From: Fundidesulfovibrio soli | GTDB taxonomy: Bacteria > Desulfobacterota > Desulfovibrionia > Desulfovibrionales > Desulfovibrionaceae | Assembly (NCBI RefSeq): GCF_022808695.1 | Contig: NZ_JAKZKW010000001.1 | Span: forward strand, 496,001 to 560,000 | Reading direction: 5' to 3' | Length of the DNA stretch: 64,000 bases | Shown: piece by piece, positions 30,945-52,800 of the stretch | How positions within the stretch are numbered: position 1 is the stretch's first letter | Layout of the letters: every line of letters starts with the position of its first letter | The notes under the pieces: model-generated | Told to the model about the DNA's origin: nothing | Database searches by the model: none | Seen by the model: only the letters and a program-made list of their open reading frames with translations | Position numbers and translations under genes: made by a program

Positions 30945-30989
30945 GCCGGGTGGTTCGGGGATGTGCCGGGCCTCAGGCCGCCCGGGGTC

Positions 30990-31072
30990 CGATTCCCTCC
31001 GGCAGTCCGAACTGCGTCAGGTTCAATGGGTATGATCTCAGTTCCGGCGTCGAAGCCGGAACACCCCAATCG
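30990..31072 (-). promoter_or_regulatory. TPP (THI-box) riboswitch upstream of thiM
   Basis: On the minus strand the conserved elements appear in order: GGGGTG (P1-P2 5' side), CTGAGATCATACCC, GAACCTGACGCAGTT, and GGAGGGAA. These match the THI-box consensus (GGGGxG, CUGAGA, ACCCxxxGAACCUGA, AGGGAA). The variable P3 arm carries GTTCCGGCTTCGACGCCGGAAC, shown here as GTTCCGGC paired with GCCGGAAC. It senses thiamine pyrophosphate and lowers thiM expression. Confidence 0.95.
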
Positions 31073-31215
31073 GCGAACGCAGGCTAGCCCCGCGACCGCA
31101 TCTATGCAAGCGTCCGGAAGGAACGCGGGGAGAAAATCCTTCGCCCCGCTGCGTGTTGACTTGCACCGCCCCAGGGCGTAGCGGCCCGCATTCACAGCAC
31201 CCACCGGACCGGACA

Positions 31216-48500: not shown

Positions 48501-49211
48501 ATGGCGTCCGATCATGGCCGCAGCGTGGCCTCCATGTTCGGCCGCATCGCCGGCTGGTACGATTTTCTGAATCATTTCTTGAGCCTCGGGCTGGACATTC
48601 TCTGGCGCAGGCGTCTGGTGGACCACATCGGGGTTTCCGCCTCGGGCAGCCCCCGCGTGCTGGACCTTGCGGCCGGAACCCTGGACGTCTCCCTTGAGAT
48701 CGCCCGGCGCTTCCCTCGCGCGCGCATCGCCGCGGCGGACTTCTGCCTGCCCATGCTGGCGCAGGGCGCACAGAAGCTGGCCCGGCGCGGGGTGGCCTCC
48801 ATCGCCCCGGTGCAGGCCGATGGCAGGGCCCTGCCCTTCCCGGACGAGACGTTCGAGGCCGCCACCATCGCCTTCGGCATCCGCAACATCCGGCCCCGCT
48901 CCGAGGCCTACGCGGAGCTCTTGCGCGTGCTCAGGCCCGGGGGCAGGCTCTGCATTCTGGAATTCGGTTCTGGGAAGCAGCGCATCCTGGGCGGGGTGTA
49001 CAACCTGTACCTGAACCGGCTTCTGCCGCTTTTGGGGAAAATTTTCTCGAAGGATGACGGGGCGTATCAGTATCTGGCCGACACCATACGCGAATTCCCG
49101 GACGCGCCCTCCCTGGCTCAGGAGATGCGCGACGCGGGCTTCGCCTCGGTCGATTGGGAGCGCCTGGCTTTCGGCATCGTGGTCATACACGTGGGCGTCA
49201 AGCAGGGTTGA
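48501..49211 (+). CDS. menG: Demethylmenaquinone methyltransferase (UbiE/MenG)
   Basis: A 236-residue SAM-dependent methyltransferase for the last step of menaquinone synthesis. It has MFGRIAGWYDFLNHFLSLGL and LDLAAGTLDVSLEIA (motif I), and AFGIRNI before the helical end, all typical of UbiE/MenG. Close by are mqnB and a polyprenyl diphosphate synthase, giving the other parts of the menaquinone molecule. It follows the small gene by 1 nt. Confidence 0.92.
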   Translation: MASDHGRSVASMFGRIAGWYDFLNHFLSLGLDILWRRRLVDHIGVSASGSPRVLDLAAGTLDVSLEIARRFPRARIAAADFCLPMLAQGAQKLARRGVASIAPVQADGRALPFPDETFEAATIAFGIRNIRPRSEAYAELLRVLRPGGRLCILEFGSGKQRILGGVYNLYLNRLLPLLGKIFSKDDGAYQYLADTIREFPDAPSLAQEMRDAGFASVDWERLAFGIVVIHVGVKQG

Positions 49212-49527: not shown

Positions 49528-50841
<1,314 letters not shown>

Positions 50842-50842
50842 C

Positions 50843-51064
50843 ATGCCCTTGCCCTGCCTGAATTGCGCCCACGACTGCTGACGCGGCTTCCTGGAAGCGA
50901 GTTCGCTTCTGAAGTCGCTACCCAGCGGCGGCGCGATCGAGGTGGAGATCCGCCCGGAACAGCGCCGCAAGCTCGACCTGGTGGCGGCCCATCGCAAGGC
51001 GGACGTGGAGTCCGTGCGCGAGGCCGAGGAGGGCCTGTGCGTGGCCGTGGTCAGGAAGCGCTGA
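50843..51064 (+). CDS. Probable TusA/SirA-like selenoprotein read through an in-frame TGA (Sec13)
   Basis: A 73-residue small protein if TGA 50879-50881 encodes selenocysteine. N-terminal: MPLPCLNCAHDC, then Sec, then RGFLEASSLLKSLPSGG, AIEVEI, and a C-terminal half ending GLCVAVVRKR. The spacing from Cys12 to the LP at 26-27 equals that from the catalytic Cys to the LP of TusA (CPxP...LP), so Cys12 sits on the TusA cysteine and Sec13 on its proline. GGAGG at 50831-50835 lies 7 nt before the ATG, which otherwise would make a useless 12-mer. The stop is 1 nt before mqnB. A SECIS-like hairpin starts 2 nt after the TGA. TusA proteins move sulfur or selenium; a Cys-Sec redox or persulfide role is inference. 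The alternative is a gene killed by one mutation. Confidence 0.72.
50883..50918 (+). promoter_or_regulatory. Candidate bacterial SECIS hairpin
   Basis: GCGGCTTC (50883-50890) pairs with GAAGTCGC (50911-50918), 8 bp with one G-U. Bulge CTG opposite T. GAAGCG (50894-50899) pairs with CGCTTC (50904-50909), closing the loop AGTT (50900-50903). The loop begins 18 nt after the TGA, as in E. coli fdhF, and has G and U at the same two loop positions. The bulged U is three positions earlier than in E. coli. Confidence 0.72.
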
Positions 51065-51065
51065 G

Positions 51066-51800
51066 ATGACGCTGGCCCTGGCGGCGGCCACCCCGGGCGA
51101 GCTGCGCCACGCCCTGGCCAAAATAGCGCCGGAGCTGGCCGGGCCGGAGTGGGCTGGACTGATCCCCGCGCGGGGCGCGGTCCAGGCGGAGATTCGCGGG
51201 CGTGACGTCCTGCTGCTGGTCACGGGCGTAGGCCCCCTGTCGGCGGCCCTGGAGGCGGCCACGGCCCTTGAGCGCTACCGGGTGACGGGGATGCTCAACC
51301 TGGGTGTCGCCGGCAGCTTCGATACGGCCAAGGCCCCCCTGTGCGCCCCGGTTGCCGCCAGCGAAGAGGTCTGCGCCGATTTCGGCGTGGCCGGGCGGGA
51401 CGGCCTTGCCGACGCCTCCGGCTTCCCCTTTCCGCAATGGGAGGGCGTGGGCGGGAAGATTTTCGACCGGCTTCGCCTGGACCCGGACGAAGCCGCCAAG
51501 GCCCTGGGGCTCGCCCTGCCTCCGGGCTGGACGCGCGCCCCGGCGCTGACCTCCGGGGTTGTCACGGGCGGGGCGGAGCGTGCCGCTGCCCTGGCCGCCA
51601 GGCACGCAACGCTCACCGAGAGCATGGAGGGGTTCGCCCTCGCCCTGGCCTGCAAGGCGCGGGGCTTGCCTTTTTTGGAAGTTCGGACCATCTCCAACGC
51701 TGTCGGAGAACGCGACCTCAAGCAGTGGAAGCTCGCCCTGGCCCTCGCCGGGCTGGGAGACGTACTGGCCGGGCTCATGCCCGAGCCGGGTGTCGGGTAA
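51066..51800 (+). CDS. mqnB: Futalosine hydrolase MqnB
   Basis: A 244-residue nucleosidase-fold enzyme removing hypoxanthine from futalosine in the futalosine route to menaquinone. It resembles MTAN/futalosine hydrolases: LLLVTGVGPLSAALEAA near residue 50, LNLGVAGSF, and SMEGFALALACKARGLPFLEVRTISN towards the end (catalytic SMEG and RTISN). Start ATG 51066 is 1 nt after the preceding stop. It is linked with ubiE/menG and a polyprenyl synthase. mqnA, C and D are outside the window. Confidence 0.88.
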   Translation: MTLALAAATPGELRHALAKIAPELAGPEWAGLIPARGAVQAEIRGRDVLLLVTGVGPLSAALEAATALERYRVTGMLNLGVAGSFDTAKAPLCAPVAASEEVCADFGVAGRDGLADASGFPFPQWEGVGGKIFDRLRLDPDEAAKALGLALPPGWTRAPALTSGVVTGGAERAAALAARHATLTESMEGFALALACKARGLPFLEVRTISNAVGERDLKQWKLALALAGLGDVLAGLMPEPGVG

Positions 51801-51831: not shown

Positions 51832-52800
51832 ATGAACACATTCGCCTCATACCTGGCCGGGGAGCTTCCGAAGATCGAAACGTGCCTGCGCAGCCACGTG
51901 AGCACGCTCAATCCCTACGTCAGGCCCATGGCCGAGCATGTGCTCCAGGCCGGCGGCAAGCGGCTGCGCCCCGTGCTCACGCTGCTGTGCGCCCGCGCCC
52001 TGGGCTACTCCGGGGGCGACCCCTACCCCCTGGCCTGCTCGCTGGAGGTGCTGCACTCGGCCACGCTGCTGCACGACGACGTGCTCGACGGCTCGGAGCT
52101 GCGCCGGGGCAGGCCCGCCGCGCACACGCTCTTCGGCGTGGGGCAGTCCATCCTGGCGGGCGACGCGCTGCTGGCCCTGGCCAACGTCATGATCGCCTCC
52201 TACAACGTCCCGCCGCTCATGGTCTGCCTTTCCCAGGCCATCCTGAACACCGCCAGCGGCGAAGTGCAGGAGATCGCCCGCGTGCGCGACGTGACCATGG
52301 ACATGCAGGGCTACCTGGACATCATCACCGGCAAGACCGCCTGCCTGATCCAGTCCGCCTGCGAGGCGGGGGCGTTGCTGGCAGGGGCCGCGCCGGAACT
52401 GGTCAAGGCCGCGGCGGATTTCGGCATGAACATCGGCATCGCCTTCCAGTTGGTGGACGACGCCCTGGACTACTCCTCTCCCAAGGAAGTCTCCGGCAAG
52501 CCCAAGGGCGCGGATATTCGCGAAGGCAAGCTCACGCTGCCGCTGATCTTCTATCTCGAATCCCTCGACCCCGCCGGGCGCGAGCGCTTTACAAAAGCCT
52601 TCAAAGAGAACACATTGCAGGAGAGTGAGCTGGAATCCACCCTCGTAGCGATCAACGCAGGAGGCTTTGTGGAACGCACGCGCGACATGGCCGCCTCCTA
52701 CATCAAGGACGCCGGGCGGTGTTTGGCGGTCTTCCCCGCCACCCCGGAAACCACGCTGCTATATGCCGCCTTGGAGGGCATGGCCAAGCGCGACAAGTAA
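51832..52800 (+). CDS. Polyprenyl (octaprenyl/heptaprenyl) diphosphate synthase
   Basis: A 322-residue trans-prenyltransferase building the side chain of menaquinone. It has GGKRLRPVL, the first Asp-rich motif LLHDDVLDGSELRRG (DDxxD), ITGKTACLI and the second motif FQLVDDALDY (DDxxD). The residues before the first motif (LHSATLLH) favour a long-chain synthase. ATG 51832 lies 31 nt after mqnB. It completes a menaquinone-linked operon. Confidence 0.92.
   Translation: MNTFASYLAGELPKIETCLRSHVSTLNPYVRPMAEHVLQAGGKRLRPVLTLLCARALGYSGGDPYPLACSLEVLHSATLLHDDVLDGSELRRGRPAAHTLFGVGQSILAGDALLALANVMIASYNVPPLMVCLSQAILNTASGEVQEIARVRDVTMDMQGYLDIITGKTACLIQSACEAGALLAGAAPELVKAAADFGMNIGIAFQLVDDALDYSSPKEVSGKPKGADIREGKLTLPLIFYLESLDPAGRERFTKAFKENTLQESELESTLVAINAGGFVERTRDMAASYIKDAGRCLAVFPATPETTLLYAALEGMAKRDK

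Follow-up and report, generated by a model that had tools for sequence, protein, structure and literature searches.

Does the TGA at the thirteenth codon of a small gene in Fundidesulfovibrio soli end translation, or does it specify selenocysteine (Sec) in a protein with a function of its own? The gene lies at 50843-51064 on the forward strand of a 64,000-nucleotide stretch of this genome (contig NZ_JAKZKW010000001.1, positions 496,001 to 560,000), which we call the window. A preliminary description of the locus had proposed a selenoprotein of the TusA/SirA type that carries Cys-Sec where TusA carries Cys-Pro. Our analysis predicts, with near certainty, that window 50843-51064 is a selenoprotein gene with Sec at codon 13. 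It belongs to an apparently undescribed selenoprotein family, named DCU in this analysis.

Conservation of the in-frame UGA

Rereading the DNA confirmed the layout first described. A Shine-Dalgarno-like GGAGG (50831-50835, forward strand) precedes the ATG at 50843 by 7 nt. The in-frame TGA (50879-50881) comes after twelve codons and is followed by 60 sense codons and a TGA stop (51062-51064), and a single base separates this stop from the ATG of mqnB at 51066. The upstream sugar dehydrogenase gene ends at 50841. With U written for the TGA, the predicted product has 73 residues, beginning MPLPCLNCAHDCU and continuing for sixty more, with the codons for Cys12 and Sec13 (TGC TGA) at 50876-50881; this assignment draws on the frame reading, on homologues and on profile matches.

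A protein search of 99 genomes, the window's own included, found a homologue in 23 (E 1e-43 to 0.0114), each match containing one TGA, which shows that the arrangement is not due to chance; weaker matches (E 0.06 or more) were discarded as chance. The site reads C-x2-D/E-C-U in these 23 first homologues, except that one of them has no first Cys. A profile built on them (A1) detected DCU in 53 of the 247 genomes searched from the window's taxonomic family and in 23 of 395 genomes of the phylum, and a broader profile (A2) found it in 30 of the 395 at E 8.1e-4 or better, including all 23 of A1. Seven further A2 matches in the phylum set (E 0.0025-0.0087), all partial, were discarded as chance: three had no stops, one had two TAA codons and three had a TGA. 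The 53 and the 30 genomes, which have one (G000) in common, and one more from the protein search (G064) make 83 distinct genomes. In all 83 we read Cys-UGA directly at the site, with exactly one in-frame TGA per match and conserved flanks on both sides, as the preliminary description had anticipated for close relatives. This recurrence makes a sequencing error very unlikely.

The search profiles carried Cys at the Sec position, and among the accepted matches of the protein and profile searches (99, 247 and 395 genomes, all Desulfobacterota) we found no form with Cys there. Homology searches for selenoproteins usually ask that a Cys-containing orthologue exist; within Desulfobacterota, DCU has shown none. 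A DNA pattern scan of named genomes returned at least 119 loci; the pattern demands TGA and is uninformative on Cys forms. Of the 119 matches listed, 54 are members by hidden Markov model score (lowest 24.7 bits, best dropped match 19.5, the 24-bit threshold having been chosen after the scores were seen), three more (L159, L195, L201) were counted as members truncated by the locus end, and the other 62 were dropped. Named bearers among the matches listed include Desulfobulbaceae, Desulfocapsa, Candidatus Electrothrix, Desulfacinum, Desulforhabdus, Desulfogranum and Desulfovibrionaceae; a few metagenome-assembled genomes (MAGs) that bear the gene are labelled merely Deltaproteobacteria or Pseudomonadota.

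Most of our conservation and hairpin counts are based on a set of 105 distinct members. C12 and U13 are invariant (105/105), and residue 11 is D in 102 members and E in 3; a more divergent locus found later (L291) has Asn ahead of Cys-Sec. The CxxC just upstream, which had been taken as part of the putative carrier, is not similarly preserved: its first Cys, Cys5, occurs in 2 of 105 members, and Cys8 in 34 of 35 Desulfovibrionales members and 0 of 70 others, 65 of which have Tyr. The upstream CxxC is lineage-specific, and we rejected it as part of the active site.

The part of the protein after the UGA is under purifying selection. Across 22 hand-picked pairs of relatives in an ungapped alignment, the summed proportion of synonymous differences (pS) after the UGA was 0.406 and that of nonsynonymous differences (pN) 0.099, with pS exceeding pN in every pair; for the seven codons before the UGA, the same pairs gave 0.565 and 0.052.

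Two variations within the family deserve mention. Six Desulfobulbia MAGs each carry two DCU paralogues (L101/L191, L100/L145, L178/L202, L172/L185, L105/L207 and L097/L198), one of the DYRKDCUWGF (or DYRRDCUWGF) type, which includes both members with selB as neighbour, and the other mostly of the DYRGDCUKG type. A divergent branch (L088, L089, L090 and L288-L292), roughly DSRKDCUK(G/A)xVGVGLRFR, may be a separate subfamily.

Predicted decoding of the UGA as selenocysteine

The genome encodes the full Sec machinery, with selA, selB, selC and selD all detected, a check on which the preliminary description had made its proposal depend. Its tRNA-Sec (selC) scored 79.1 bits; the next best match, at 52.9, also exceeds the cut-off of 47, which 5 of 14 control genomes pass. 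SelA scored 604 bits (1 of 14 control genomes passing), SelB reached E 1.8e-111 (2 of 14), and SelD scored 336 bits (2 of 14), with one TGA inside selD itself. In each of the 30 DCU-bearing phylum genomes SelB is matched at E 4.5e-103 or better; since 353 of the 395 genomes pass the selB cut-off, this agrees with Sec decoding and does not prove it.

UGA codon 13 would be read as Sec through a Sec insertion sequence (SECIS) hairpin immediately downstream, whose conserved stem begins 12 nt after the UGA. In the window, this SECIS-type hairpin spans 50883-50918 (forward strand), with an upper stem at 50893-50910, an AGUU loop at 50900-50903 and a lower stem. In 102 of 105 distinct members, five positions pair (G-U allowed) at a constant distance downstream of the UGA; the loop has 4 nt in 77 of these 102 and 6 nt in 25, and its second position is G in 103 of 105 members and in 20 of 20 hold-out loci. 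When the stem test was applied at 147 offsets, 101 of 104 sequences scored at the site and 72 and 25 at the adjacent offsets, which register the same stem; the next best offset elsewhere gave 21 and the median was 1 of 104. Among loci fetched later, the stem is present in 18 of 20 hold-out loci and 8 of 8 further ones (7 distinct stretches), and the divergent loci L288-L292 have it in the same register.

The stem also covaries. In 74 sequences, 99.8% of cells are paired and all six pairs show two-sided changes, with a covariation score of 0.403 versus 0.203 (sd 0.012) in shuffles and none of 500 as high; this set comprises the clades with a 4-nt loop, picked after the stems were inspected, and the shuffles ignore relatedness. 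A published model of the bacterial SECIS calls for a loop of 3-9 nt, a G in the first two loop positions, a spacing of 16-37 nt and a minimum free energy of at most -7.5 (PMC13188914). DCU agrees with these constraints in loop size, G position and spacing, and the 54-nt minimum is at most -7.5 in 104 of 105 members. On 42 nt, the window's own element folds into the hairpin at -22.5 kcal/mol (z -3.9). An Rfam search of 501 bases spanning the gene gave three matches, all far under their gathering scores.

Several observations count against reading the codon as Sec. The five-pair stem is missing in five tested loci (L009, L010, L023, L296 and L297). When single sequences of 54, 42 and 36 nt are folded, the optimum contains the hairpin in 86, 96 and 94 of 105 members, respectively, and for the window's element on 54 nt a different fold is slightly better and the hairpin is missed. 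In most genes UGA acts as a stop codon, and the selenoprotein status of DCU is here a computational prediction. One could accordingly imagine that a 12-codon reading frame stops at this codon and that a separate or decayed frame lies behind it, or that the TGA is a sequencing error. Set against this are the Cys-UGA of 83 genomes with its conserved flanks, the SECIS covariation, the single folded domain predicted across the UGA, and the complete Sec machinery; we regard a non-selenoprotein as scarcely credible. On the strength of the homologues with TGA, the pS/pN values and the covariation, we rejected an ordinary stop or a pseudogene.

Predicted fold and relation to TusA

AlphaFold models of the window protein (predicted local distance difference test score 89.9) and of a second member from a MAG labelled Desulfobulbus propionicus (92.0) agree with one another. 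The window model consists of a strand (5-7), a helix (12-25), a strand (31-36), a helix (38-50) and two strands (53-60 and 66-72), and both models place Cys12-Sec13 at the start of helix 1. Foldseek searches with the window and second models ranked YeeD/TsuB 1 and 1, the SirA-like 3hz7 4 and 48, and the E. coli TusA structures 1dcj 7 and 5 and 3lvj (TusA-IscS) 14 and 3. Template modelling (TM) scores by query length for 1dcj, 3lvj and 3hz7 are 0.77, 0.77 and 0.78 with the window model and 0.72, 0.73 and 0.63 with the second; YeeD/TsuB (8k1r), a thiosulfate-uptake protein, reaches 0.78-0.84. The two models and the Foldseek matches bear out the domain assignment first made from sequence, and a TusA-like fold for DCU is supported at the level of structural models.

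DCU shares with TusA/SirA (PF01206) the order of the fold elements, the length, a Cys that starts helix 1 and the spacing from this cysteine to the Gly after the helix. A comparison of the DCU profile with 24 TusA/YedF domains scored 27.2 with a probability of 72%, whereas 20 column-shuffled controls reached no more than 12.7 and 1.1%; this alignment is local and starts after the Cys-Sec site, and its gapless extension would place Cys12 on the TusA cysteine. A run that included one wrong-frame row (L220) reached 86.9% and aligned Cys12 on that cysteine, and a gapless count from the glycine after helix 1 yields the same register, which would put Sec13 on the first Pro of CPxP. The earlier placement of Sec on this proline is supported by the spacing through helix 1 and by the profile alignment. 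Counting from the N-terminal strand (IDYRGDCU versus LDxRGLxC, by eye) would instead put Sec on the TusA Cys. The two registers would agree if one residue had been deleted ahead of the site; we consider Sec on Pro the more likely reading. In these terms, DCU keeps the Cys of CPxP in 105 of 105 members and replaces the first Pro by Sec in 105 of 105; at the second Pro it has Gly in 98, Ala in 6 and Pro in 1.

The kinship with TusA has evidence against it as well. The two AlphaFold models are not independent, sharing most of their alignment; Foldseek gave no match with E 0.001 or less for either model, and methyltransferases and fatty acid synthase domains also stand high in its lists. A sequence search of the PDB with profile A2 found no significant similarity, with a single match at E 1.8. 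DCU also lacks Asp45 and Asp51 of TusA, which the accessible text of the IscS-TusA paper terms absolutely conserved (PMC2854127). This last test discriminates weakly, because the 24 TusA/YedF controls vary there too: position 45 is D or E in 21 of 24, and position 51 is D in 3 of 24. The Pfam TusA gathering score was not reached: 4 of 23 and 7 of 50 members showed a weak match (E 1 or better), the best at 22.2 versus 28.6 bits, and the window protein alone had no Pfam TusA match, single-sequence Pfam and NCBIfam searches being uninformative here. Judged by TusA sequence hallmarks, DCU is not a TusA member; it is probably TusA-like in its mode of action.

Two relatives of TusA help to place DCU. 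YeeD/TsuB tops both Foldseek lists; it works with, or is fused to, the transporter YeeE. For DCU, where 64 of 101 same-strand neighbours were searched with Pfam, the 25 families listed out of 40 do not include YeeE. YedF, composed of SirA-like and DsrE-like domains and linked to SelD, resembles DCU in tying a TusA-type domain to selenium metabolism, and the two genes occur within one cluster in genome G569. DCU differs from YedF in bearing Sec, in lacking the DsrE domain and in being a single domain of about 70-80 residues, and it had no match to the YedF model TIGR03527 in NCBIfam.

Genomic neighbours, chemistry and novelty

In some lineages, DCU stands beside selenium genes. A LysR gene precedes it in six phylum genomes, with 22-179 nt from the last codon to the DCU motif, and all six LysR proteins exceed the cut-off of NF040786, the selenium metabolism-associated LysR (254.6-273.3 versus 250). 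In two further loci the upstream protein is 59% identical to one of these six, by identity comparison rather than an NF040786 scan. One of the LysR loci, in G569, has selD and yedF 2-4 kb on. SelB is encoded directly upstream in two Desulfobulbaceae loci, L101 (376.6 bits) and L178 (85% identical). The link to selenium genes is clear but confined to some lineages. In G569, a gene that looks molybdopterin-related by eye (L244, 10869-11915, reverse strand) lies between DCU and selD/yedF.

The gene, its Sec decoding signals, the fold model, the invariance of Cys-Sec and these selenium-gene neighbours were computed directly; from them we infer the chemistry, cargo and partners. In TusA, sulfur is carried on Cys19 and comes from the persulfide of IscS, according to the accessible text of PMC2854127. 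Cys12 of DCU would occupy the position of this persulfide cysteine, with Sec13 in place of the next proline at the N-terminus of helix 1. A zero-valent Se or S atom may be taken up on Sec or Cys; attack by the neighbouring residue would release HSe- or HS- and leave a Cys-Sec selenenylsulfide, which thioredoxin-like reductants could reopen. We favour, with moderate confidence, a chalcogen carrier or reductase that uses this Cys-Sec pair and prefers selenium. Selenium is put forward as the preferred cargo because several lineages have DCU with the selenium LysR, with selD/yedF or with selB. A more specific version, a dedicated selenium carrier that itself requires Sec, takes Se0 from a lyase or a selenodithiol and hands selenide to SelD under the control of the selenium LysR, is a tentative proposal and rather less probable.

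A preference for selenium has to be weighed against contrary evidence. DCU is far rarer than selB (30 versus 353 of the 395 phylum genomes), which indicates that Sec synthesis does not generally require it. SelA, SelB, SelD, YedF or the selenium LysR was found near DCU in 6 of 77 stretches (4 of 20 regions and 2 of 57 loci), and the window's own lineage has a sugar-nucleotide dehydrogenase gene and mqnB, rather than selenium genes, next to DCU. In 12 loci of one Desulfovibrionaceae genus group (L043, L045, L048, L051, L055, L060, L063-L065, L067, L068 and L163), DCU has an S1-type (rpsA-like) gene on one side and, 5-75 nt on, a transporter gene of one shared protein cluster on the other; the transporter is Pfam TauE/SafE in all nine scanned. 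These TauE/SafE neighbours and the kinship with TusA and the thiosulfate-uptake YeeD/TsuB, the nearest folds, favour sulfur as cargo, and cable bacteria, Desulfocapsa and Desulfobulbus are among the bearers. DCU might then be a sulfur relay boosted by Sec, or a reductase linked to polysulfide, thiosulfate or sulfite, in sulfate reducers and disproportionators. The selenium LysR, SelD/YedF and SelB as neighbours speak against sulfur, as do the Pfam TusA proteins that all 29 relatives searched possess as well (28 over the cut-off), and we consider a function with sulfur alone a less likely but real possibility.

In the window itself, upstream of DCU lies a nucleotide sugar dehydrogenase gene (49528-50841, TIGR03026, GTG start set by eye) and downstream that of the futalosine hydrolase MqnB (51066-51800, TIGR03664); farther out are a MenG/UbiE methyltransferase gene (48501-49211, TIGR01934) and a polyprenyl diphosphate synthase-like gene that reached no NCBIfam cut-off (51832-52800), all on the forward strand. 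The sugar dehydrogenase and menaquinone setting to which the preliminary description had tied the protein recurs in parts of Desulfovibrionaceae and does not hold in other lineages; limited in this way, it was rejected as a functional clue. The one-base gap to mqnB and a UGA as early as codon 13 could suggest that the codon mainly makes translation of the downstream gene depend on selenium, as a switch, with the peptide secondary. The downstream gene varies by lineage and the whole TusA-type domain is under purifying selection, and we consider such a switch very improbable. A promoter scan found no site 5' of the DCU gene, its sole site being at 52298.

Pfam searches of 64 of the 101 same-strand neighbours returned TauE in 9, MqnB-type in 8, LysR in 6, CxxCxxCC in 6, CreA in 5 and sugar dehydrogenase in 5, in a list that gives 25 of 40 families. 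The CxxCxxCC protein, a putative metal chelator, is encoded directly upstream of DCU in L124, L126, L155, L161, L172 and L189, and in four of these six loci a ferredoxin-looking protein (by eye) follows on the opposite strand. In cable bacteria and relatives (L108, L116, L165, L186, L191, L194, L199 and L202), the upstream proteins form one cluster, identified as CreA in the five scanned; five related loci have a small membrane-like protein (by eye) downstream. Elsewhere in the window, a thiamine pyrophosphate riboswitch lies at 30977-31078 on the reverse strand, over the Rfam gathering score.

Is the family known? NCBIfam (June 2026) holds no relevant model, and among the 5 and 10 families matched by 23 and 50 members at E 1 or better there was no selenoprotein model. 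The preliminary description had taken Sec-containing SirA/TusA-like and YedF proteins as already known; we could not substantiate this, as Table 1 of PMC13188914 (2026), with 119 families or subfamilies, has in its accessible form no row for TusA, SirA, YedF or PF01206. The same accessible table does list adjacent Cys-Sec (CU) pairs in SaoL (MerB-like), HgcA, SaoC, SaoB, MbdU, the 2Fe-2S protein Csac_0668 and KCU-star/DUF466. DCU shares this pair with them and differs in that the members scanned matched no NCBIfam selenoprotein model. By analogy with these proteins, Cys-Sec might bind a metal(loid) or an organometal, or act as a redox or detoxification switch. The unmatched selenoprotein models in 23 and 50 members argue against this, as does the partial list of neighbour families, which includes no mercury or arsenic family, and we judge it improbable.

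In its accessible portions, deep-Sep (2025) describes nine new families, none called TusA-like and three being hypothetical proteins without domains. Neither Lin 2015, Zhang 2008 nor Fujita 2007 names a TusA-like selenoprotein in the text available, and Kivenson 2021 counts a Sec 'sulfurtransferase' among previously known types, with details in a supplementary table. Literature searches on TusA or SirA-like proteins with Sec found no description of DCU; subscription papers and supplements fell outside their scope, so that a prior mention is possible. The homology step of deep-Sep accepts, by its available description, candidates that have either a known Sec homologue or two or more Cys homologues, and DCU would escape it because our Desulfobacterota searches found no Cys form.

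Desulfobacterota, cable bacteria included, appear to possess in DCU a further selenoprotein family that is widespread, lacks annotation and is common to many bacteria with a sulfur metabolism. Lin 2015 and Zhang 2008, in their accessible parts, sought a selenium-linked subfamily of SirA-like proteins, did not find it and settled on YedF; DCU is a candidate for that subfamily. According to the available text of a 2026 review (PMC13188914), it is incompletely elucidated what donates selenium to SelD in vivo, a question that DCU makes testable. If the protein were indeed a selenium carrier that itself requires Sec and has no form without it, it would constitute a self-sustaining step in Sec synthesis. 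More broadly, DCU is possibly a missing piece in the cellular movement of selenium or sulfur.
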